DNA of 64,000 nucleotides from Prorocentrum cordatum (Eukaryota > Sar > Dinophyceae > Prorocentrales > Prorocentraceae): assembly GCA_963575745.1 (NCBI GenBank), contig CAUYUJ010018726.1, positions 744,545 to 808,544 on the forward strand. Reading direction: 5' to 3'. Under the pieces are notes generated by a model, which had not been told where the DNA came from, made no database searches, and was given only the letters and a program-made list of their open reading frames with translations. The translations under genes were made by a program, and so were the position numbers. Positions 1,578 to 51,786 of the stretch are shown one piece after another; position 1 is the first letter of the stretch, and each line of letters opens with the position of its first letter.

Positions 1578-3363
1578 ATGCATTGTGACAAGCGCGCAGA
1601 AGAATATCTGCAGAAGTTCGCATGCCTGAAGAACGTGCTGGACGCGCGCAGATCCCCGACGATGCCAACCGAGAGCTGCCCTGTAGCGAGCGGGGTTTTC
1701 AAGGCATCTTTGGAAGGCGCGCTCGGCACTGGCTGCGCGCCCAGCCGCGCGCAGTGGAAGCAAGATTTCTGCAACAAAGGGCCGTGCGACATCCCTAAGT
1801 TTTCACTTTGCGAGCTTCGCCGCGCTGTCAAGAAAATGAAGCAAGGCAAGTGCGCCGACCGGAGCGGTGTAACTTTGGAGATATTTCTGCACGGTGGGCC
1901 TCTCTGGCACGACGTCCTCCTGGAAGGGCGCGACTCGCCGCTTGCTTCTGGGGTGCTTGAACCGTCTTGGCGGGCAAACGGCATGCCTCATGCTGCCAAA
2001 ATCAGGGACGCGATCTGATCTGACGAACTGGAGGCCACTTGCGATACTCAAGAGCACATATCAGATTTTGCCCAGATTGCTGTTCGCACGTCTGCATGCG
2101 CATTTAGACCGTCAACAGCATGAAGACCAAGTCGGTTTTCGACCGAACCGATCCGTCGACGACGCGGTCGTGGTTTTCGAAGAGATCTGCACGAAGACGT
2201 GGGAGTACGGAAAGCCTTTGTGGAGCGTCCGCTTGGATCTGTTTAAAGTTTTCGACCGGATCGGATATCCGACGCTGTTTGCCGCTCTGCGAGAACAGGG
2301 CGTTCCTCGCGAATACTTATTCTTGTTAATAGACGCGTGTGCGAACCAGACAGGCCAGGTGCAGGGCGGCGAAATGTTTGTCATTATTCGCGGCGTCAAA
2401 CAAGGCGACGCGTTCTCCTCCTTGCTGTTTAACGGTGGGCTTGCGCAGGCCGCGCGCACCTTCGAGCTGAAATGTCCCAGCTGCGGTTTGCGAGTTGACC
2501 CCAGCGAGCTCCTAAACATCAGGTACGCAGGCGACGTCTTGTTGTGCGCCGGGTCATCGGAAGAGGCAATGCGGATGGTCGCCACGATGTCCGCGGAACT
2601 GGGGAAGCAAGGCCTCAGCTTGAATGCAACCGAATCGAGGATTGTCACGAACGACCCGAATGTATCCCACTCCGAAGTTCCGATGGTGGTGCCGCGTGGC
2701 GACATGTCGTTCTCTGTCATGACGTGCCGTGACTTTCGCAAGTGCCTCGGCCGGAAGTTCAGCGGCAATCTGACCGGCCGTGCGGACTCTCATCTCGACT
2801 GCAGATTGGAGTGCGCTCGGGGTGGCTTCCACGCGAATAAGCAGACGCTTGCCAATGCTAACATATCGCTGCGCCTTCGGCTGAAGTGGTTCGAACCTGC
2901 GATTACTCCTACAGCTGTGTACGGCGTGGCTTCTGTGGGCATGACCAGCAGACATCGCTCGCGGTTGGCAGCCGCTCGAAACAAGATGCTTCGGATAATT
3001 GTGGGGTTCTCGAAGCTGGAGCAAGAGTGTTGGGGGGATTCGGACAGGCGTCTAAAACGCAAAATGGAGCGGGCGATGAATATATTCGCTGTCTCAGAAT
3101 GGACCGAAACAGTAGATAGAGCTCGATGGCGGTCGATGTCGCGTCTGTGCGTTTCTGGCTCGCGGCCGGCAGTTGTCATGCGATGGGCACCTGGCGGCCC
3201 CAGACGCCAGGGCAGACCCAGGACAAGGTGGACTTATTATGCGCGCAAGTTTTTGTCGTCGACAGGGTTCTTGTTGCAGAAAGCATTGCGACAAGGCGAG
3301 AGTTTTCCATGGAATGCTCTCGAGGATGAGTATTTGCAGCTTATGACCAACAGCCACACGTAA
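1578..3363 (+). pseudogene. LINE 1 reverse transcriptase, inactive
   Basis: Reverse transcriptase for a non-LTR element. The N-terminal RT region (AVKKMKQGKCADRSG) is read from 1578. The rest is a 489-codon frame from 1894 to 3363. Motifs are DQVGFRPNRSVDDA, DLFKVFDRI (motif A, usually DLSKAFDR), GVKQGDAFSSLLFN (motif B) and RYAGDVLLCA (motif C). Motif C should read YADD. Here the first catalytic aspartate is glycine (codon GGC at 2530-2532), so the enzyme should be dead even if the frameshift near 1890 were repaired. The C-terminal part (about 3100-3360) has the WR-rich, RGRPRTRW tail seen in many LINEs. Confidence 0.88.
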
Positions 3364-17897: not shown

Positions 17898-17991
17898 GTT
17901 GGGGTCAGTCCAGGGTCAGTCCGGAGTCAGTCTGGGGTTAGTCTGGGGTAAGTCTGGGGTCGGTCCGGGGTCAGTCCGGGGTCGGTCTGGG
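17898..17991 (+). repeat. GGTCAGTCCGGG minisatellite, left flank
   Basis: Tandem 10-12 bp units of type GGGGTCAGTCC. The same family in the same orientation resumes at 24722, just beyond the palindrome, so the palindrome appears to sit inside one array. Confidence 0.85.
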
Positions 17992-18861
17992 TGGATAGGG
18001 TCACGGGCATGTCGGGGATCAGATTAAGAATGATGAAAATGGTTTTCTCATGGTTCTAGGCCGGTTGCGGGCCGCGCGGTGCTGAAGTTGAAAATGCTTC
18101 ATGGTGGTTTTGAAAATGGCCGCGCGCGCGTTTCAAATAGTTTCGGTGTCAAACTAGCAGCTTGGCGCGCCCGCCATTGGAAGGTATGATTACGCGCAAC
18201 GCGGCCTTCGCTCAGGGGTGCCAGGGCAAGTGGCGCTTGATCCTCCTTCCCACTCTGCCCTGCAGTAGGCGGTACGAGCCAAGGGCGTTTGAGCCTTCTC
18301 CGTGCCTCTTCACATGCAGCCCGAGCTCGGCCTTTAAGCGCGCGGGTGTCTTTTGTTGGGCTAGTTGGAACTAGAGGTTGCGTCTCGAACCGAAAGAGCC
18401 AACATGTTTTGTCCCACCAATTACCGTTGCTACTGCACGCTGCTGGGGCCGCCGCCCACGAAGGCATCCCCAGGTTCGCGCCGAGTCCGTCACATGTGAA
18501 ACGTGCTGCGTTTGCAGGCTGGCCCGCGCCGAGTCCGCGGCATGTGAAGGGTTTGACAACTCGGCGCCGCGCCGAGCAAGCTATCGCGCCCCCCCTACCC
18601 TCCTTATCGGCAGAAGCAGGGGCGCGTGCAAAAGGGCACTTGTTTAAGTTGTTGTATTTTTCCCGGAAAGGGCATAGGCCCAGGGTTCTCTTTTCCTATG
18701 TAAACATATCCCCCCGTGCCCAACTTGAAGGAGGCCGGCGGATTCTTTCCCTGATAAATATCGAGGTCGAAGGAGGCCGGCGGATTAAAATTTGAGGATG
18801 TCTCAGGCGAAACGCTTGTTTTTGAAATCCCGATCGATAAATCACAGGGTGCGGGACACCT

Positions 18862-19580
18862 CAGCACGACCACACCCCAGCACGACCACGCCCCAGCACG
18901 ACCACGCCCAGCACGACCACACCCCAGCACGACCACACCCCAGCACGACCACACCCCAGCACGACCACACCCCAACACGACCACACCCCACCACGATCAC
19001 ACCCCACCACGACCACACCCCAGCACGACCCGATCGATGAATCACAGGGTGCGGACCACCCCAGCACGACCACACCCCAGCACGACCCCACCCCAGCACG
19101 ACCCCACCCCAGCACGACCACGACCACACCCCAGCACGACCACACCCCAGCACGACCCCAGCACGACACGACACCCCAGCACGACCACACCCCAGCACGC
19201 CCCAGCACGACCCCACCCTAGCACGACCACACCCCAGCACGACCACACCCCAGCACGACCACACCCCAGCACGACCCCACCCCAGCACGACCCCACCCCA
19301 GCACGACCAACCCCAGCACGACCACACCCCAGCACGACCCACCCCAGCACGACCCACCCCAGCAAGACCACACCCCAGCACGACCACACCCCAGCACGAC
19401 CTCACCACAGCACGACCACGCCCCAGCACGACCACGCCCCAGCACGACCACGCCCCAGCACGACCACGCCCCAGCACGACCACCCCCAGCACGACCACCC
19501 CCCCAGCACGACCACCCCCCAGCACGACCACCCCCCAGCACGACCACACCCCAGCACGACCACTCCCCAGCACGACCACA
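18862..19580 (+). repeat. 16-bp satellite in copy A
   Basis: Unit AGCACGACCACACCCC with variants. Because 16 is not a multiple of three, all frames cycle through the same 16-residue peptide. Open frames such as 19037-19651 (+) and 18842-19579 (-) are repeat artefacts. The motif GATCGAT(A/G)AATCACAGGGTG occurs before each of two satellite blocks (about 18832 and 19030). Confidence 0.9.
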
Positions 19581-19607
19581 CCGCCTTGGTTGAGTGGTTG
19601 CCTGTCG

Positions 19608-19732
19608 TCGTGGAATGTTTCGTGGGGTGTCTCGTGGAATGTTTCGCGTGAGGTGTCTCGCGGAATGTTTCGTGAGGTGTCTCGTGGGATGTTTCGTGAG
19701 GTGTCTCGTGGGATGTTTCGTGAGGTGTTGCC
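19608..19732 (+). repeat. 24-bp satellite in copy A
   Basis: About five units of GGAATGTTTCGTGAGG followed by TGTCTCGT. The same array is at 23024-23140 in copy B. Confidence 0.85.
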
Positions 19733-20141
19733 CCGTTGGGTATCGTGAAAACGTGCCCATGCTCCACATGTCTATATCCCTTTCCGGGTTCGTGGGTCCA
19801 TCATGTTTCAAGTTTGTGTCTAGCAGCTCCGCGAAACTACTGCAGCACGCGCCTGTGCAGTCCATCGTTGTGTGTGTTGGGTAATTCGTTATTTTCCCTC
19901 CCCGCTCTGAGGTCGCCGCCCTGGGCGGCCGAATGACGAGAAACTTTGCTCAAACTTGCGCCGCAGGATGTGGAGTGAGAAGATATGGTACGATGCGGGA
20001 TCGATTACACATGTCTGCGGTAACTGCACATGCAACAAGGGGACGATTTGGGGAGACTCGTGGCCCGTCAAAGGAGGAGGACCATGAGCAGGAGCAACTG
20101 CAACAGGCGTGCGTCTAGGCGCGCGTGGCCCTGCCACTGCG

Positions 20142-20629
20142 TCAAAGAAAAACCGTGGTGACTATAATGATTATGGACGACCGGGGCGGGGGGGGCAGCT
20201 GCTTTGGCATTGGCGGTGCGCGCCGCAGGCATCTGGATATCTGGACAAACCGCGGGTGCAGCTGCAGGAAGTTCTTCCTGCCCTCGCACTTCCGCTCGTT
20301 CGCCAGCGAGACCTCCGTGCTTGTTTTGCGTGCTCGGTCGCGCCCGTGTTTCATGTTGCCCACAGCCACCTGGCACTCCATCTGAGAAATGGCCCCGGCC
20401 ATGTGTCTCTGGAAAACTGTGCATGGGTCCTTGTTGGTGAACAGCCCCGGGATCGAGGCGTGCACCAACTCCGGACCTCGCTTTTCGCACTCCGCGATCG
20501 CCTCTTCCTGCACCATCAAGCGGCGGGCCAACCGCTTCTCGTCGGGCACCACGATCCGCTTGATGCCGCGCTTCTCGCACCTGTCCACGAAGGCGGCCAC
20601 GCCGGGCCTGGACAGGAACGGCGTTGAAC
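20142..20629 (-). pseudogene. Serine recombinase segment, left-arm copy
   Basis: Read on the minus strand from the splice-acceptor-like CCCCAG (reverse complement at 20630-20635) to TGA at 20142. It encodes the central part of a resolvase/invertase-type catalytic domain: FVDRCEKRGIKRIVVPDEKR, LARRLMVQEEAIAEC, DPCTVFQRHMAGAISQMEC and CEGRKNF. The RLxR arginines fit the family motif RLxRD, but the final Asp is Arg. The N-terminal strand with the catalytic serine (usually R-V/I-S-T) is not in this segment. It would need an upstream exon or has been lost. It differs from the right-arm copy at six of about 163 residues. Confidence 0.65.
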
Positions 20630-20925
20630 CTGGGGAAGCAAAAAAAAAAACTCTACGACAAATTCGGCGTGCGATTTTGCAGTTATTCGCCGCGGGGGCG
20701 GTGGAAACATGAAGGCGGGGGGGGGCGCTTGCTGTAGCAATTGCGTAGTGTAGCGTCTGGCACGCTAACAAATCCAGGGTTTGCCGATGGGCGATGTTAC
20801 CTTCGGAAGAGGACGCGACGCGCCACATTCCTCATCCAATGCCCCTGCGGTGTGTGGGGGCGTTGTGGCCCCGCCGTCCTGGGACGTTCTTCAAGACGAG
20901 CGTTTCCTGGACGGTGGGGGGGTGC

Positions 20926-21946
20926 CGCGTCCATGATAGCGTGTCCAGAAAAAGCTGCCCCCGCGCTGCTTGAGCCGCGAAAAAGCAACGAATGGCTACA
21001 GTTGGGTGGTCCACGCTTACTTCCTCCGGTTGCCACGGGCCTCCCAGGGATCCCCGCCGGCCCCCGCTGTCAGTCCGCCGCAGTCTATTTGTGACTTCTG
21101 TCGGGCGACACGAACCTCCCCTGGGCCGTCGCCCGTAGGCTGCACGTACTTCCGCGGCCTCCTGCGGGCCGTCGGCCGCAGGCTGCACGTACTTCCGCCG
21201 GCTGCCGCCGACCTCCCGCCAACGTCTGTTGGCAAGAGCGTCCGCCTCTCCGCCAGCTCTGGCGGGCCCTCAGCCGGTGGGCCCCGCCTACTCCCGCCGA
21301 CTGCCGCCGACCTGCCGCTTGCTCCTGCCAGCGCAAGAGCCCCCCCTTCGAACGGCCCCCACGGACCGTCGGCCAACTTCTGGCGCCGGCCGCCAGGCTG
21401 TGCCAGAAGTCGGCCCAGGACTGACTTCTGGCGCGGGCCCGCGTCGGAAGTCGGTCCTGGACCCACTTCCGACGCGGGCCCGCGTCGGAAGTCGGTCCTG
21501 GACCGACTTCCGGCGCGCCCTTCTGTCTCCGCCCCAACCCTCGTCGGCGCCGTCGCCGGCGTTGCCCCTGCCGCCCTCTAGCGTTTTCAAGCCTCGGCGG
21601 GGCCCGCGCCCCCCCTCGCGCGCCCTCCTTCCTCCTCACTGCCCCCTCCCCCAATTTTCCTCCTCGCCCCCCTCCTCGCCCCATTCCCCCCTTCCCCCGC
21701 ATCCCCATCCACCGCCTAATTGTATTCCTCCTGCTCCTGCTCCTGCTCCTGCTCCTCCTTCCCTCTCCTATCTGCCGCGCCTGCGGCGTTCGGGCACCGC
21801 GCAACATATGTTTGTTTCGTTTTCTGGCGCCCGCGCCATGCCTGCCAAGATGAAGGCGGCTGCCACGACACGCGCGTCGACGATGACGAACGTGGATGGC
21901 GCCAGCGCGCCGCGGCAGAAGGCACAGATAACGAAGGCGGCCAGGG
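20926..21946. other. Loop of the palindrome
   Basis: GC-rich sequence with many short repeats of GGAAGTCGGTCCTGGA type, a perfect 28-bp palindrome (21465-21492), a CTCC-rich stretch (21590-21720) and (CTGCTC)n at 21729-21757. A short open segment on + starts with ATG at 21838 (MPAKMKAAATTRAS) and runs into the right arm (ETLVLKNVPGRRGHNAPTH). The left arm on - keeps the same last words, so this may be an upstream exon of the recombinase gene. Confidence 0.5.
21465..21492. repeat. Perfect 28-bp palindrome
   Basis: ACTTCCGACGCGGG is followed at once by its reverse complement, with no loop. Imperfect copies lie on both sides (about 21422-21455 and 21500-21520). Confidence 0.9.
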
Positions 21947-22233
21947 GCACCCCCCCCACCGCCAAGGAAACGCTCGTCTTGAAGAACGTCCCAGGGCGGC
22001 GGGGCCACAACGCCCCCACACACCGCAAGGGCACTGGATGAGGAATGTGGCGCGTCGCGTCCGCTTCCGAGGGTAACATCGCCCATCGGCACGAAACCCT
22101 GGATTTGTTAGCGTGCCAGACGCTACGCAACGCAATTGCTACAGCAAGCGCCCCCCCCCCCGCTTTCATGTTTCCACCGCCCCCGCGGCGAAGTACTGCA
22201 AAATCGTACGCCGAATTTGTCGTCGATTTTTTT

Positions 22234-23217
22234 CCCGGAAAGGGCGCAGGCCCAGGGTTCTCTTTTAGTATGTAAACATGTCCCCGGTGCCCTGATAAAT
22301 GTCGAAATCGAAGGAGGCCGGCCGATTAAAATTTGAGGATGTCTCAGGCGAAACGCTTGTTTTTGAAATCCCGATCGATAAATTACAGGGTGCGGGACAC
22401 CTCAGCACGACCACACCTTCAGCATGACCACACCCCAGCACGACCACGCCCAGCACGACCACGCCCCAGCACGACCACACCCCAGCACGACCACACCCCA
22501 GCACGACCACACCCCAGCACGACCACACCCCAGCACTAGCACGACCCAGCAGCACGACCCATCGTCACAGGGTGACGGACCACCCCAGCACGCACAGCAC
22601 GACCCCACGCACGACCCCACCCCAGCACGACCACCCCAGCACGACCACACCCCAGCACGACCCCACCCCAGCACGACCCCACCCCAGCACGACCCCACCC
22701 CAGCACGACCACACCCCAGCACGACCACACCCCAGCACGACCCACCCCAGCACGACCCCACCCCAGCAAGACCACAGCACGACCACACCCCAGCACGACC
22801 TCACCACAGCGCGACCACACCCCAGCACGACCACGCCCCAGCACGACCACGCCCCAGCACGACCACGCCCCAGCACGACCACGCCCCAGCACGACCACCC
22901 CCCAGCACGACCACCCCCAGCACGACCACCCCCCAGCACGACCACCCCCCAGCACGACCACACCCCAGCACGACCACTCCCCAGCACGACCACACCGCCT
23001 TGGTTGAGTGGTTGCCTGTCGTCGTGGAATGTTTCGTGGGGTGTCTCGTGGAATGTTTCGCGGGGTGTCTCTGGAATGTTTCGTGAGGTGTCTCGTGGAA
23101 TGTTTCGTGAGGTGTCTCGTTGGATGTTCTCGTGAGGTGTTGCCCCGTTGGGTATCGTGAAAACGTGCCCATGCTCCACATGTCTATATCCCTTTCCGGG
23201 TTCGTGGGTCCATCATG
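22234..23217 (+). mobile_element. Nested satellite-rich element, copy B
   Basis: 984 bp inserted in the right arm, with the same ends as copy A (CCCGGAAAGGGC...GGGTCCATCATG) and the same orientation in the window. The left arm keeps the empty site as an A11 run (20640-20650). Here seven T precede and three T follow the insert. It lacks a duplication of about 47 bp present in the leader of copy A. The 16-bp satellite spans about 22400-22996 and the 24-bp satellite about 23024-23140. The insertion lies in a T-rich tract 10 bp before a CCCCAG splice-acceptor-like site. Confidence 0.8.
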
Positions 23218-23230
23218 TTTGCTTCCCCAG

Positions 23231-23718
23231 GTTCAACGCCGTTCCTGTCCAGGCCGGGCGTGGCCGCCTTCCTGGACAGGTGCGAGAAGCGCGGCATCAA
23301 GCGGATCGTGGTGCCCGACGAGAAGCGGTTGGGCCGCCGCTTGATGGTGCAGGAAGAGGCGATCGCGGAGTGCGAAAAGCGAGGTTTGGAGTTGGCGCAC
23401 GCCTCGATCCCGGGGCTGTTCACCAACAAGGACCCATACACAGTTTTCCAGAGACACATGGCCGGGGCCATTTCTCAGATGGAGTGCCAGGTGGCTGTGG
23501 GCAACATGAAACACGGGCGCGACCGAGCACGCAAAACAAGCACGGAGGTCTCGCTGGCGAACGAGCGGAAGTGCGAGGGCAGGAAGAACTTCCTGCAGCT
23601 GCACCCGCGGTTTGTCCAGATATCCAGATGCCTGCGGCGCGCACCGCCACTGCCAAAGCAGCTGCCCCCCCCCCCCCGGTCGTCCATAATCATTATAGTC
23701 ACCACGGTTTTTCTTTGA
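23231..23718 (+). pseudogene. Serine recombinase segment, right-arm copy
   Basis: Resolvase/invertase-type catalytic-domain segment on +, in the frame ending with TGA at 23716-23718. Features in order are AFLDRCEKRGIKRIVVPDEK, RLGRRLMVQEEAIAECEKRG, NKDPYTVFQRHMAGAISQME and CEGRKNFLQLHPRF. In this family such a domain forms a phosphoserine link to DNA during site-specific recombination. The catalytic serine strand is missing from the visible segment. The canonical RLxRD Asp is Arg. GCTTCCCCAG just before 23231 resembles a 3' splice site, and copy B sits in its pyrimidine tract. The last about 20 residues (PPPPRSSIIIIV) look like read-through. Similar resolvase-domain proteins are known from dinoflagellates. 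Confidence 0.7.
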
Positions 23719-24721
23719 CGCAGTGCCAGGGCCACGCGCGCCTAGACGCACGCCTGTTGCAGTTGCTCCTGCTCATGGTCCTCCTCCTTTGACGGGCCAC
23801 GAGTCTCCCCAAATCGCCCCCTTGTTGCATATTCAGTTACCGCAGACATGTGCAATCGATCCCGCATCGTACCATATCTTATCACTCCACATCCTGCGGC
23901 GCAAGTTTGAGCAAAGTTTCTCGTCATTCGGCCGCCCGGGGCGGCGACCTCAGAGCGGGGAGGGAAAATAACGAATTACCCAACACACACAGCGATGGAC
24001 TGCACAGGCGCGCGCTGCAGTAGTTTCGCGGAGCTGCTAGGCACAAACTTGAAAAATACAACAACTTAAACAAGTGCCCTTTTGCACGCGCCCCTGCTTC
24101 TGCCGATAAGGAGGGTCGGGGGGGCACGATAGCTTGCTCGGCGCGGCGCCGAGTTGTCAAACCCTTCACATGCCGCGGACTCGGCGCGGGCCAGCCTGCA
24201 AACGCAGCACGTTTCACATGTGACGGACTCGGCGCGAACCTGGGGATGCCTTCGTGGGCGGCGGCCCCAGCAGCGTGCAGTAGCAACGGTAATTGGTGGG
24301 ACAAAACATGTTGGCTCTTTCGGTTCGAGACGCAACCTCTAGTTCCAACTAGCCCAACAAAAGACACCCGCGCGCTTAAAGGCCGAGCTCGGGCTGCATG
24401 TGAAGAGGCACGGAGAAGGCTCAAACGCCCTTGGCTCGCACCGCCTACTGCAGGGCAGAGTGGGAAGGAGGATCAAGCGCCACTTGCCCTGGCACCCCTG
24501 AGCGAAGGCCGCGTTGCGCGTAATCATACCTTCCAATGGCGGGCGCGCCAAGCTGCTAGTTTGACGCCGAAACTATTTGAAACCCGCGCGCGGCCATTTT
24601 CAAAACCACCATGAACCATTTTCAACTTCAGCACCGCACGGCCCGCAAGCGGCCTAGAACCATGAGAAAACCATTTTCATCATTCTTAATCTGATCCCCG
24701 ACATGCCCGTGACCCTATCCA

Positions 24722-24935
24722 GGTCTGGGGTCAGTCCGCGGAGTCCAGGGTAAGTCTGGGCTTGTCCAAGGCCTGTCCGGGGCCCGTCCGGGCTCAGTCT
24801 AGGGTCAGTCCGGGGTCAGTCCGGGGTCAGTCCAGGATCATTCCGGGGTCAGTCCAGGGTCAATTTGGGGTCAGTCCGGGGTCAGTGCCAGTCCAGGGTC
24901 AGTCCGGGTCAGTCGGCTGATCCCAGATTGACTTT
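24722..24935 (+). repeat. GGTCAGTCCGGG minisatellite, right flank
   Basis: Tandem units of GGGGTCAGTCC type, same orientation as the left flank at 17898-17991. Confidence 0.85.
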
Positions 24936-30680: not shown

Positions 30681-33600
30681 AGCAGTACTGGTGGTCTGTT
30701 GGCGCAGCACGACCTACGGCATCCGTCACAAGCACTACCCCTACCAGAACAAGTCGCGTCCCCTCCATCCCCACGCCACCTTAGAGACGACGCGGGCTCT
30801 GAGCACAGCAACAGCACTTCATCTGCCTCATCCTCAAGCAGTTGCACCTCCACCTCAAGCCCCTCCTCGCCGAGTTCTCCTCCAGCACGGCCCCCGCTTC
30901 CGCGCACTTCTCGTACTGCACCTGCGACAATGCCGCAGGACTCTTCGGGACATTACATCTGCTGTAACGCCCGAGGCCTTCTTTGTCATGACGATCGCAA
31001 ACGATGGGAGAAGATTCGACAGCTCTCTCCATTTCTGAAGAAGCAATCAATCACTTGTGGCAATACAGGGGCCTCACGGATCGCTGTTAGACCTCCAATC
31101 TCACATGGACAAACCCCCTTACCGATGCGATGTCTTCGTTAGCGGATGCCCTTCCAGCAGAGGCCAAGGCGGTCTGGCCTTCCTGGTTCCAGCGGCTGCC
31201 GCCGAGGACACCACTGTCTCCATGTGGCCCATCATCAGAGGACGTGTGGCAGTGCTATACATTGCTAATCACAACACAGGCTTCGAGACGCTTCTCATGA
31301 ACGTTCACAATCCTGTTTTGGCGGCAGCGGACATGATACATGCGACAGAAGCGTGGCATGCTTCACGGAGGTGGGCAGCTCATTCGCCACAGCAACGCGT
31401 CTTCATTGCCATGGGCGACCTCAACACCAGTGCCGTACCCTCATTCAACTTCAAGGATCCATCAGCTCGCTGGCGGTCAACACCAACGGGAACACGCACG
31501 TTGGCGCCAGCCCTTTGCGTCTCTCACGGAGATCACCCACGACTTGCCCACGCACTTCTCGGCGAACGCTCAGGCTGCGACAGCCATCGATCGCATTTTC
31601 ATTTCTCTCTCTGGCATCGACCTCATGAATGTCGACGCGCACTTGAAGATCCACAAGGACGGAGCCGCACTTTCGGACAAGGGCCTGAGCGATCACGCGA
31701 TCCTCCACATGGTACTTGCAAATGTGACAGCGGCTCACCCAGAGGAACAGGCCATCGACCCGAGCATTTTCCACGACCCCTCGTACCAGGTACACTACAA
31801 CTTCCTGAAAGACAACGTGGCTCAAGCTCATCACTCGCTTACTTCTGCAAGGAAACAACACAAACTCATTATCAAAGAGGCTGCTCGTCTTAGTCGCAAT
31901 CTTCAACAACGTGCTTCTCTTCGGGACCTCAGCCGATGGGCGAAGCACGGACGGCTGACCACATTACGGGCTATTGCTCGCACCATATGGCGCAAGGACA
32001 AGGACATTGCGACGCTTCTGATGGCGACCACAGAGATTGGACGAGCACACTTGTGCATCACCGAGAGCGGCCCCGAACTCACGAACAGAGACGCCTTCAT
32101 CCAGCTGATGGACAACACGGTCACTGCCGACTACGATCGCCGCGTTGCCCTCGCCACCAAGCGCCAGCAGAGCCACGCCGCCGAGCAGATGGACCAAGCT
32201 GGGAGCAGGCGCGCCGCCATGCAGCTCACCCGGCGAGCCCAGGCGTGGAACCCGTTCAGACGCCGCCTCGTACTTGCAGGACTTAGGATCCCAAAAGAAC
32301 GCCCCACCGTTCCCACCCCTAGTGTCACGAGCACCCCTCAGGGAATCCTTGAAGGACTTCAGAAATTCTGGCAGCCCATCTTCTCGCACAAGCATGTGGA
32401 CCCCGCGGTGGTCCGAGACTACCTGAATGCGCACCTCCCCAAGTTCGAGTACGCGGACCTCAGGGTTCCAGCAGTTCACGATTCCCAGAAGGCCCTCCGG
32501 AAGGTTAGACATACTGCTCCTGGCCCAGATCAAATTCCATATGCTGCATGGGCCGCTTCTCCTGGTTCGTCCGAAATCCTTTGCGACCTGACGATGCAGA
32601 TGTTTGAAACAGGACTGGCGCCCCACCAGTTCAACGACTCCGTCTTCGCCTGGCTCCCGAAAGGAGATGATCCACAGGACCTCTATGCCGTCTTCCGTGC
32701 CCCGGGTGCCACTCGCCCCCTCTCCTTAAAGAACTGCGACGCTAAGCTGATCGCTCACGTCGTGAACATGGGCTTGGCCAATATGGTACGGGAGCGTACG
32801 ATAGACACACAGCAGGGCTTCGTCAAAGGTAGGAACTTTGGGCAACACGTACTGACACTTGATTCTGAGGCCCGTAGAGCAGGTCACTCCCCAGTTGCCC
32901 TAGATGCCCTCCCGATTCTGATGAGCTTCGACATTAAAGCAGCCTTCCCATCTCTGGGATGGGGGCTTTTATTTGCTTCTCTGGTTGCGCACGGTGTCCC
33001 CCCTGGATACCTTAGCGCGATTTATGCTTTATACCACGCCCCAGGCGCATGGGCCCGTGTAGGAGGCCAATTGCAACACATGTTTGAAATCGGTTCTGGT
33101 TTGCTCCAAGGGTGCCCGCTCTCTGGGTCCATTTGGGCCCTGGCCTTTGATGCCCCCATTCGTCATCTCACCCGCATGTTAGCTTCTCTGCCTGGACCGA
33201 ATAAGCTCGGGGCCTGCGCAGATGATCTGGGCCTCGTTCTCGCTCGCCTTGGGGCCCTCCCGCACCTCCTCCCCCCTTTTCGGGCCATAACCAGCCTCGC
33301 AGGACTCGAACTTCTGATCCAGAAGACGGTGATTGTCCGTCTTTGGGCCCACTTTTCGCTAGCCGCACAGTCTCTTACTCAGCGCCTGCTAGCCTTTCTC
33401 ACCCCAGAATGGAAGATATCCACATTGCAGATTACGCCCGCTATTTAGGCGTACTTATAGGCCCCGGCGTCATTTTAGACATTCAGTGAAAAGCAGCTTT
33501 TGACAACTATTGGCTCCGAGTAGTGCAACTCGCGGCGAGCGTGCCAGGCCCAGCAGTTGCCATCATCTTATACAATACTTGCGTTATCACGGTGCTGTCG

Positions 33601-43287: not shown

Positions 43288-43399
43288 CCGTTGGCCTTTT
43301 GGTCTAATTCTAGCAGCGTCGCAGCATATCGCGTCACGGCCGGTTCCCCCATCTTCTGCACTCACGGGGACTTCTGACACCCTGACACCTTAGTATAAT

Positions 43400-44662
43400 A
43401 TGGTTGCAGACGTCAAGATCGAGAAAGCGCTGAACCCAGATCAGCAACATTTCATTGACACAGAGAGCGAGTTCGGTGCCCACAACTACCACCCGCTTCC
43501 GGTCGTGCTTGAGAAGGGTGAGCGATGCTACATGTGGGACACGGGCGGGAAGAAGTATTTTGATTTTCTCGCGGCCTACTCGGCCGTGAACCAGGGTCAT
43601 TGCCACCCAAAGATCGTGAAAGCGATGATGGACCAGTGCCAGAAGCTCACGTTGACATCACGAGCCTTCCACAACGACGTGTTTGCAGGCTACTGCAAGT
43701 TCGTTACCGAGTTCTTCGGCTACGAGAAGGTTCTTCCGATGAACACTGGAGTAGAGGGAACAGAAACTGCTATCAAATTGATGAGGAGGTGGGGATACAT
43801 GAAACGCGGCGTCGCGCCCAACAGGGCGCAAATCGTTTTCGCAAACGATAATTTCTGGGGGCGAAGTATCGCGGCCGTGAGCACCTCTACCGATCCAGAC
43901 TGCTACGAAGGGTTCGGTCCTTACGCCCCTGGTTTCATCATGGTCCCTTTCAACGACGTCCACGCGCTGGAAAAGGCCTTCGCCGAGGACCCGAACATCG
44001 TCGGCGTCTGCTACGAGCCGATCCAGGGGGAGGCTGGCATCAAGGTGCCAGATCCGGACTTCTTCAGGCAGGTCAAGGCGCTCTGCGAGAAGCACAATGC
44101 ACTCTTGTGCTGCGATGAAATCCAGACTGGACTGTGCAGGACCGGAAAGATGCTCTGCAGCGAGCACTACGGCATCCGTCCCGACATTGTCGTGCTCGGC
44201 AAGGCGCTGTCTGGCGGCCTGTACCCGGTCTCGGCGGTCCTCACCGACAAGCACGTCATGGATACGATCACGCCTGGTACGCACGGGTCCACGTACGGAG
44301 GCAACCCTTTGGCCTGCAGGGTGGCAATCGCAGCGTTGGAAGTGTTGAAAGAGGAAAACATGGCCGATAACGCGCAGAAGTTGGGAGAGATCTTCCGCGC
44401 TGAGCTGGGCACCATGCAAGGCAAGTACCCCTGGATCAAAGATATCCGAGGCAAGGGCCTGCTGAACGCGATCGAGTGCGACCCTGCGTTCTCAGAAAAG
44501 GTCACAGCCTGGCAGGTCTGCATCAGGATGGCGGAGAACGGTCTCCTCGCCAAGCCGACTCACGATAACATCATTCGATTCGCGCCGCCTTTATGCATCA
44601 ACGAAGAGGAATTGCGCGCGGCTCTCAAGATAATCATGGACACTTTCGCCGAGTTCGCCTAG
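43400..44662 (+). CDS. OAT: Ornithine aminotransferase
   Basis: 420 residues, no intron. It transfers the delta-amino group of ornithine to 2-oxoglutarate, giving glutamate semialdehyde and glutamate, and links arginine breakdown to proline and glutamate metabolism. It is a PLP class-III aminotransferase: GVEGTETAIKLMRRWGYMKR (about residues 117-137), EPIQGEAGI, LLCCDEIQTGLCRTGK (PLP aspartate), and LGKALSGGLYPVSAVL with the PLP lysine at residue 268 (AAG 44201-44203). Length matches cytosolic forms such as yeast. The N-terminus (MVADVKIEKALNPDQ) aligns directly with the mature enzyme and shows no mitochondrial presequence. All motifs are intact, so it is probably functional. The relict leader upstream suggests a retroposed mRNA copy. 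Confidence 0.95.
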   Translation: MVADVKIEKALNPDQQHFIDTESEFGAHNYHPLPVVLEKGERCYMWDTGGKKYFDFLAAYSAVNQGHCHPKIVKAMMDQCQKLTLTSRAFHNDVFAGYCKFVTEFFGYEKVLPMNTGVEGTETAIKLMRRWGYMKRGVAPNRAQIVFANDNFWGRSIAAVSTSTDPDCYEGFGPYAPGFIMVPFNDVHALEKAFAEDPNIVGVCYEPIQGEAGIKVPDPDFFRQVKALCEKHNALLCCDEIQTGLCRTGKMLCSEHYGIRPDIVVLGKALSGGLYPVSAVLTDKHVMDTITPGTHGSTYGGNPLACRVAIAALEVLKEENMADNAQKLGEIFRAELGTMQGKYPWIKDIRGKGLLNAIECDPAFSEKVTAWQVCIRMAENGLLAKPTHDNIIRFAPPLCINEEELRAALKIIMDTFAEFA

Positions 44663-50316: not shown

Positions 50317-50542
50317 GTCCACGCCGCGTGAAAAGAGGTCCCGACGTCGGAGTTCCGGGTGCCTCCTCGTCCCCCCCTTCGTCCTCGTTGTTGTCCTTGT
50401 CGTCGTCGTCGTCGTCGTTGAGCCCGAGCGCTCATCCAGCCGCAACTGTGAGCATGGCCAACGCAGCAGGGGCACTTGTCGTTGTCGTCGTCCTCCTCCT
50501 CCTTCTCTTCCTCGTCGTCGTCCTTGTCCGAGGCTTTGTTCT

Positions 50543-50563
50543 CCGCTGCCCTTGTGGCTCAGG
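50543..50563 (+). other. Possible relict spliced leader upstream of V-ATPase subunit d
   Basis: CCGCTGCCCTTGTGGCTCAG and the next G match the last 21 bases of DinoSL at 16 positions. It lies 47 nt before the ATG of the V-ATPase gene. Confidence 0.5.
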
Positions 50564-50610
50564 GTGTCGCGGTGATTGTCCACGGCGACCGTCGCAATTG
50601 CGTTCAAGCC

Positions 50611-51786
50611 ATGGCGGAGCTCGCTGGCTTCAACGTGAACCATGGTTTCACCGAGGCAGTCGTGCGAGGCCTGCGCACGGGCTTCCTCGAGCCCGAGGAC
50701 TACAGGCGCCTGGCTACCTCGGACTCCCTGGAGGACTTGCGGAGCGCCCTAGAGGAGACCGACTATGGGAACTTCCTCCAGGACGAGCCCTCGCCTCTCC
50801 TCGTGTCGACGATCTCCAAGAAGTGCTACGAGAAGCTCGCAGATGAGTTCAGGTATGTCAAGGCTCAGACAGTCGAACCGCTCACAACGTTCCTGGACTT
50901 CATTGCGAGGGAGAAAATGATCGACAACATCGTCGTGCTCATTCAAGGCGCTCTGAACAACAAGGCCCCGAAGGACCTTGAGGACAAGATCCACCCGATC
51001 GGCGCGTTCGACAAGGCCGCCATGAACATGATCATGTCGGACTCATTCGACCCCCAGGGCGGCTTCGACGACATCTACCGGATCTTCTTGCAGGATACCC
51101 CTATCGGGCCGTATTTCGAGGAGTTCCTGGCAGACAAGAACCCAGACAAGGAAGACCCGCAGAAAGGCCTCGACAAGCGCGGTATCCTCAGCAAGCAGGA
51201 CTTGGAGATCATGAAAGGGCTCTTGAAGAAGGCGTGGCTCGAGGACTTTCACAAGTTCGTCCTGAGCCTGGGCGGCACCACGTCGGAGGTCATGGGCGAC
51301 ATCCTGAAGACGGAGGCGGACTTCCGCGTGCTGCTCGTGACGCTCAATGCGCTGAACACGCACCTCAGCACCGGCTCGGAGGGCGCGCTCAAGGAACGGA
51401 ACGATCTGTGGCCCTCATTCGGCTACCTGTACCCCGAGGGCCAGAAGGCATTGGGAGTGGCGTTCAACGAGAGCACGGTCCGGGATTCCCTGAGCCACCC
51501 CGCCAAGTACTTGCAGCTCTTCGACCAGGTGAAGTCTTACTACGGCGCCGAGGCAGAGCAAGCCGCGAAGGGGAACCAGTCGATGGAGGATCTGATCTAC
51601 GCCGAGAACGTGAAAATGTACGAGATGGCATTCGAGCAGCAGTACCATTTTGGCATCTTCTACGCCTGGGTGAAGCTCCGGGAGCAGGAGATACGCAACA
51701 TCCGCTGGATCGCGAACATGATCATCCTGCAAACGAAGGATCACATCGACGACACAATCGTTCCCATCTTCCAGCCCCGCCTGTGA
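50611..51786 (+). CDS. V-type proton ATPase subunit d (V0)
   Basis: 391 residues. Subunit d caps the membrane c-ring of the V0 sector and couples it to the central rotor stalk (D/F) of V1, for proton pumping into vacuoles and endomembranes. The start MAELAGFNVNHGFTEAVVRG matches the family N-terminus, so ATG 50611 is chosen over 50476, whose first 45 codons are Ser-rich triplet repeats. Further family segments are RRLATSDSLEDLRSALEETD YGNFLQ, PLTTFLDFIAREKMIDNIV, a LGGTTSEVM segment, LYPEGQKAL, FHFG-like YHFGIFYAWVKLREQEIRNI and the C-terminal DDTIVPIF. It is about 40 residues longer than animal and plant forms (about 350). The extra length lies mainly near residues 170-200 and 240-260. No intron; intact. 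Confidence 0.93.
   Translation: MAELAGFNVNHGFTEAVVRGLRTGFLEPEDYRRLATSDSLEDLRSALEETDYGNFLQDEPSPLLVSTISKKCYEKLADEFRYVKAQTVEPLTTFLDFIAREKMIDNIVVLIQGALNNKAPKDLEDKIHPIGAFDKAAMNMIMSDSFDPQGGFDDIYRIFLQDTPIGPYFEEFLADKNPDKEDPQKGLDKRGILSKQDLEIMKGLLKKAWLEDFHKFVLSLGGTTSEVMGDILKTEADFRVLLVTLNALNTHLSTGSEGALKERNDLWPSFGYLYPEGQKALGVAFNESTVRDSLSHPAKYLQLFDQVKSYYGAEAEQAAKGNQSMEDLIYAENVKMYEMAFEQQYHFGIFYAWVKLREQEIRNIRWIANMIILQTKDHIDDTIVPIFQPRL

Follow-up and report, generated by a model that had tools for sequence, protein, structure and literature searches.

Architecture of the element

The window analysed here is a 64,000-nucleotide stretch of Prorocentrum cordatum DNA (contig CAUYUJ010018726.1, positions 744,545–808,544; G000:C17877:744545-808544) with a GC content near 0.6. 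Positions 17992–24721 of this window are occupied by a palindromic element, which carries parts of a bacterial-type serine recombinase gene and is a member of a mobile family that has recently multiplied. Both tips are exact (TGGATAGGGTCACGGG), and the octamer GGTCTGGG abuts them exactly on the left (17984–17991) and on the right (24722–24729), as described in the sequence-only reading that first drew attention to the locus. An 11-bp minisatellite surrounds the element (17901–17991 and 24742–24914); it was said to run in the same orientation on both sides, and inspection by eye bears this out.

The arms match each other in inverted orientation in an outer part (17992–18662 against 24051–24721, 99% identity), a middle part (19803–20642 against 23218–24057, 98% identity) and an inner part (20645–20922 against 21951–22233, three blocks, 92–97% identity). 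The block alignments (92–99%) uphold the earlier description of inverted arms of about 1.8 kb each, left after removal of two nested inserts. The centre (20923–21950) is single-copy within the element. The features are as follows.

17984–17991, no strand: left copy of the target-site duplication, GGTCTGGG (flank comparison)
17992–18662, forward: left arm, outer part A, starting with the tip TGGATAGGGTCACGGG (inverted-arm alignment, genome copies)
18663–19802, forward: nested repeat "I" at the A/B site of the left arm, with a minisatellite of about 16 bp (ends approximate by a few bases)
19803–20642, forward: left arm, middle part B (inverted-arm alignment)
20208–20629, reverse: left-arm copy of recombinase exon 2, pointing outward and unjoined to an N-terminal exon (profile match)
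20645–20922, forward: left arm, inner part C (inverted-arm alignment)
20923–21950, forward: unique centre X, holding 41-bp self-complementary tandem repeats at 21406–21517 (repeat and arm comparison)
21838–21994, forward: recombinase exon 1, 52 codons and one base, running from the centre into the right arm, with a predicted splice point; Arg12 codon at 21871–21873 and Ser14 codon at 21877–21879 (paralogue alignment; profile for the exon)
21951–22233, reverse: right arm, inner part C', including the first part of the predicted intron (inverted-arm alignment)
22234–23217, forward: second nested repeat "I", within the predicted intron (repeat comparison)
23218–24057, reverse: right arm, middle part B' (inverted-arm alignment)
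23231–23646, forward: right-arm recombinase exon 2, in phase with exon 1 (profile match, paralogue alignment)
24051–24721, reverse: right arm, outer part A', ending with the tip (inverted-arm alignment)
24722–24729, no strand: right copy of the target-site duplication, GGTCTGGG (flank comparison)

Searches with Rfam at gathering cut-offs and a tRNA scan returned no matches.

Copies of the element in the genome

The 4.13-Gb assembly (21,875 contigs) was searched with the 31-bp tip, allowing at most 3 mismatches. This search yielded 126 matches (61 forward, 65 reverse), a count that seems to overstate the number of loci, since the assembly seems to contain duplicate or haplotype copies (C6022 and C15616); the reversed pattern, used as control, gave 0 and 0. 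Further copies with the same ends, which the sequence-only reading had called for, are thus present. Neighbouring elements lie 917 bp apart on both C6022 (15295–27653) and C15616, apparently in opposite order.

A search with the outer arm (671 bp) produced 140 candidates, 40 of which were scored, all at 98–100% identity. Twenty loci were fetched from the top matches to the left arm of the window element, a choice biased to close relatives, and 13 of them contain complete palindromes of the order A-B-C-X-C'-B'-A'. Others (L010, L011, L014, L024, L027 and L028) have interruptions or gaps, or end with the contig or the fetched stretch, and L022 has neither centre nor inner arms, yet both tips and the 8-bp duplication are present. 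The arms of family copies are 95.7–99.7% identical. Among the first 100 places listed, tip pairs give sizes near 4.5–4.7 kb or 6.7–7.2 kb, with a few of intermediate size (5.0, 5.5 and 6.0 kb) and a few pairs spaced more widely (C4197, C14892 and C18769).

Several variants were observed. L047:250–347 (C14515:1049–1146) is a 98-bp miniature that consists of little more than two tips and has no target duplication. At L016:1881–3415 (C3156) an older arm copy (91%) begins to resemble the family exactly at the exon-2 splice acceptor; the sequence upstream is unrelated, and neither exon 1 nor a left tip was found within its 7.5 kb. Tips are also joined to other interiors: L043, L044 and L046 match the family over their first 91, 185 and 166 bp only. 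Within about 6 kb of these three, words like the opposite tip were found at L043 alone (three, each with 4 mismatches in 16), and among the matches listed L043 and L044 have one common stretch of 135 bp at 80%.

Target-site duplication

Flanks were compared for 26 elements with both ends in view, namely the window element, 14 large loci, 10 small pairs of end stretches and the 98-bp miniature. A duplication of at least 8 bp is present in 22 of them, against 0 of 650 wrong-pair flank controls, so the 8-bp duplication proposed from the window recurs in other copies and an assembly artefact is ruled out. Exactly 8 identical bases were counted in 21 of the 26, including L019 with its one-base change in the right tip; in L026 the duplication measures 15 bp and lies within a tandem repeat. 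Four elements fall short: L015, whose right tip is altered and whose octamer is displaced by 3 bases outward; L020, with a broken right tip; L068/L069 (6 bp); and the miniature L047.

Strand cleavage by known serine recombinases is staggered by 2 bp, and 8-bp duplications are not expected from such chemistry. Duplications of 8 bp are made by the P, hAT, Sola1 and Merlin superfamilies.

Arm identity and the unit of copying

Same-type arms from different elements have 98.16% identity (276 pairs), opposite-type arms 97.18% (271 pairs), and the two arms within one element 97.19% (14 pairs). Since same-type arms resemble each other across elements more than the arms of one element do, the palindrome predates the spread of the copies, and the unit of copying is the whole palindrome. 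An arm tree is affected by the choice of loci through the window's left arm and was not used as evidence.

At 10 diagnostic columns, picked for differing between arm types so that the count leans toward a reading of patchy conversion, 25 of the 40 arms show one arm type throughout, 14 have 1–3 switched columns (L013L, L016R, L017L, L018L, L018R, L019L, L020R, L021L, L021R, L025L, L025R, L027R, L028R and WINR), and L026L has 8 of 10 switched. Such patches suggest gene conversion between arms. Flipping of the centre by crossing-over between the arms was considered and rejected, because the switched columns are patchy and have no common crossover point.

The two nested inserts (about 18663–19802 and 22234–23217) are one and the same minisatellite-bearing repeat. 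It is inserted in T runs in the form (T)n-CCCGGAAAGGG...CCATCATG-TTT, with its orientation fixed at each site, and is also present outside the element (e.g., L046:830–1882). In L020, L023 and L027 the two sites within the element are occupied by different subtypes, which suggests that the repeat has inserted more than once and with a preference for particular sites. L020 and L027 at first looked flipped relative to the nested inserts; the inserts there belong to another subtype and are better read as separate insertions.

Structure of the recombinase gene

A profile search of both arms, which had been predicted to return the resolvase family, did so: the Resolvase profile (PF00239) matches the right arm (E 7.6e-11, 42.7 bits) and the left arm (E 1.1e-9, 38.9 bits) above the Pfam cut-off of 23.3. 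In each arm the open exon 2, after a clear acceptor, covers profile positions 47–141. By sequence alone, the best solved-structure match of the arm segment is weak (E 0.15). The earlier claim of near-identical, outward-pointing resolvase segments stands as far as exon 2 is concerned, with 6 differences over 143 residues compared by eye; the two segments are not equivalent, as exon 1 is found on the right-arm side only.

The N-terminus of a full-length paralogue at locus L034 aligns with the frame of the centre (MPAKMKAAATTRASTMTNVDGASAPRQKAQITKAARG...TLVLKNVPG), and its next residues align with exon 2. A profile of eight relatives places exon 1 on the right-arm side (E 3.4e-8) and finds exon 2 twice, once per arm (E 3.9e-53 and 4.7e-51). 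The gene therefore runs from the centre into the right arm. Its start, with the Arg-x-Ser motif at 21871–21879, lies in the unique centre and is absent from the left arm. Judging from these alignments, exons 1 and 2 would be spliced at the join KNVPG-STPFL; the predicted donor reads CAG|GA in 13 of the 14 copies where the motif was found and CAG|GG in the window copy. Catalytic residues are encoded by TRAS in exon 1 and KRLGRR in exon 2, aligned to R16, S18, R89 and R92 of L034. No credible match to the C-terminal fifth (profile positions 190–233 of 233) was found in the element.

Two candidate exons were discarded. "MWRVASSSEG" had been considered as the exon preceding exon 2, and the full-length paralogue places the join at KNVPG-STPFL instead; a third exon for the C-terminus was given up, as no C-terminal match was found in the element. 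None of ten further element frames contains a Pfam transposase domain.

Decay and selection

In 8 of 20 copies exon 1 can be read without a frameshift as far as the predicted splice point. In the other 12 it is out of frame or its start was not recognised: in ten the shift falls within or close to a run of C, in L016 it comes earlier, and no start motif was recognised in L024. Substitutions among exon-2 copies are silent in 30 of 127 cases, a fraction of 0.236 against 0.233 expected. With two unassignable rows dropped (L016_1881R and L022_2047R), the connected arm has 9 silent and 47 non-silent substitutions (13.0 silent expected) and the other arm 15 and 37 (13.6 silent expected); the substitutions common to three or more arms comprise 4 silent and 16 non-silent ones. 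Three other long frames of the element are also neutral among copies, and purifying selection among copies was not seen in any of the four frames tested.

Synonymous divergence (dS) from L034 is saturated, and identities by codon position were used instead. Exon 2 has 68, 74 and 36 identities per 100 at codon positions 1, 2 and 3, and exon 1 has 27, 28 and 11 of 35. The protein was therefore under selection long before the family spread.

Full-length paralogues and bacterial relatives

A genome-wide Resolvase search gave 129 matches among the 150 scored of 151 candidates. Most of them cover the profile range of this element family; seven are full-length. A single-exon frame of 258 codons is found at L034 and L035, and L029–L033 are further full-length serine recombinases with open frames of 283–350 codons. 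No difference separates L029 from L030 over 3.4 kb, and L031 shows 98% identity over 2.5 kb; these genes are probably also mobile or duplicated.

A protein search with the window's exon 2 returned one match, P0001, and a search with L034 returned 114. P0003 (81%) and P0001 (80%) both lie on short ENA contigs; the other 112 are 25–35% identical and, where named, are usually DNA invertase Pin-like. Arg16, Ser18, Arg89 and Arg92, and likewise the KCEGRK motif, are invariant across seven aligned sequences including L034. An AlphaFold model of L034 built from seven sequences has a mean pLDDT (predicted local distance difference test) of 72 and a pTM (predicted template modelling score) of 0.50, and of the 28 structures that it matches at E ≤ 0.001, 27 belong to serine recombinases or integrases. 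Viral contigs scanned with P0003 gave 5 pattern matches and no relative.

Contigs C13588 and C2755, otherwise about 97–98% identical, differ in the orientation of a segment of about 15 kb relative to its flanks (L034, L041 and L052 at C13588:317156–334400 against L035, L042 and L053 at C2755:57605–74800; one contig pair). The full-length serine recombinase gene lies about 260 bp from one end of the inverted segment, and the junctions contain short palindromes, e.g., GTTCCTTATTC-CCGA-GAATTAGGAAC. The junctions differ in length (by eye, 26, 24, 16 and 14 bp), which indicates that the segment was not exchanged cleanly.

Other content of the window

Pfam domains were found in 5 of the 8 long window frames scanned. 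Two reverse-transcriptase frames (1873–3360 and 31337–33445) and an endonuclease/exonuclease/phosphatase frame (276–1097) are probably derived from retroelements. Nearly full-length aminotransferase class III (43394–44659) and V-ATPase AC39 (50452–51783) domains are each encoded by one uninterrupted frame.

Origin and mobility of the element

The element is probably a non-autonomous DNA transposon with long terminal inverted repeats (TIRs), of the foldback type, that is moved in trans by a DDE-type transposase and carries the recombinase as a decaying passenger. Encoded elsewhere, such a transposase would recognise the tips and mobilise the element through 8-bp staggered cuts. An ancestor may have taken up a Pin-like serine recombinase gene, after which one side would have been duplicated in inverted orientation; this could have produced the palindrome and left each arm with an exon 2. 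The mover is most likely a DDE transposase supplied in trans, because the 8-bp staggered cut is unlike serine-recombinase chemistry, and the gene is truncated and decaying, so a passenger is likelier than an engine.

A number of observations weigh against this explanation. A transposase with the same tips was not found when 16 bp of the tip followed by a different next base were searched (3 matches against 1 in the control), and no DDE domain occurs in the frames scanned with Pfam, a scan that included no search aimed at particular transposase families. Exon 2 is open in 33 of 39 arms. The share of open copies is higher on the connected side, 17 of 18, against 14 of 19 for the unconnected arm, which leans to upkeep of the gene in the connected arm, a tendency absent from the substitution counts; this bias may be due to youth and chance. 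In a 122-aa frame of the outer arm, changes common to at least three copies include 5 silent ones against 2.9 expected, a value reached in 66 of 500 shuffles. Neutral drift is also common in young, recently autonomous families, and selection during the spread is only partly excluded by it.

The same bias in exon 2 would suit a Tn3-like history, in which an autonomous ancestor with TIRs possessed both a DDE transposase, since lost, and the serine recombinase as a resolvase or invertase that once took part in the cycle. All 13 complete elements among the 20 loci contain the gene region, which is integral to centre and arms, and the codon-position identities to L034 indicate long past selection on the protein, which may however predate the capture. 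No relative combining the same tips with a transposase was found in the 16-bp tip search, the frames scanned contain no linked DDE transposase, and L022 keeps tips and duplication without a centre, which could have been lost after insertion. Such an ancestry is regarded as unlikely. The probability is lower still that the recombinase itself is the transposase, in which case serine transposons having TIRs and 8-bp duplications would form a new class in eukaryotes. It is the sole recognisable protein in the element, its catalytic Arg/Ser and Arg residues are encoded, and such an element was not found described in the literature searched; strand cuts 2 bp apart, however, do not yield 8-bp duplications, the C-terminal part is absent and selection is not seen in exon 2. 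The suggestion of the sequence-only reading that the recombinase defines an undescribed element class is accordingly not sustained: the gene is truncated and neutral among copies, with exon 1 broken or its start unrecognised in 12 of 20, and the duplications would not be expected from known serine-recombinase chemistry. An ordinary inverted duplication or assembly artefact has a negligible probability; duplicated regions do exist in the assembly (C6022/C15616, with the tip spacing of 917 bp, and C13588/C2755), but the same ends occur at unrelated sites with different flanks, and the duplications described above accompany them.

Beside a separate transposase, recombinases from L034-like paralogues could act on palindromes, for example by resolving transposition intermediates or by making the inverted duplication. 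That working Pin-like serine recombinases are kept in dinoflagellate nuclei for such action, with the 15-kb inversion as a product, is a doubtful proposal.

Relation to known systems and significance

Foldback and long-TIR transposons (Drosophila FB, Galileo of the P superfamily, Tetris and nematode Tm1) resemble the element in their very long inverted repeats, short target duplication and many non-autonomous copies. Long TIRs with identical tips in many copies and a target duplication of fixed length, by which foldbacks are recognised, are both found here. To our knowledge, no foldback transposon (FB, Galileo, Tetris, Tm1) carries a serine recombinase. Pack-MULE-type TIR elements capture spliced gene fragments and have duplications of about 9 bp. 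The element is likewise a TIR element with a spliced fragment of another gene; it differs in its 8-bp duplication, in having no linked MULE transposase, and in that the fragment lies within the TIRs and is thus partly doubled.

Pin-like small serine recombinases (about 225–250 aa) include five bacterial-type relatives, chosen from the 114 matches, with which L034 aligns over 85–96% of its length. Identity is 31–33%, and the window version differs in having a predicted intron and no C-terminal part. Eukaryotic IS607-type elements also possess a bacterial-type serine recombinase; they are described without TIRs and target-site duplications in PMC3627910 and PMC6188088, whereas both are present here and the catalytic domain is N-terminal. 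Introner elements, inverted-repeat DNA elements reported as abundant in the P. cordatum genome (PMC10666404), share the inverted-repeat build, and the window element is far longer. The resolvase of PMC12721341 is a Holliday junction resolvase. In the titles and abstract beginnings searched on dinoflagellate serine recombinases and resolvases, TIR and target-site-duplication elements, foldbacks and eukaryotic serine-recombinase transposons (few subscription journals included), no such element was found.

No parallel was met in the literature searched for a bacterial-type serine recombinase gene carried by TIR elements with target duplications in a genome that has every sign of being eukaryotic and nuclear. 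The genome of P. cordatum also contains full-length, repeated serine-recombinase genes, and the inverted 15-kb segment provides a concrete locus at which recombinase activity in a eukaryotic nucleus could be tested.

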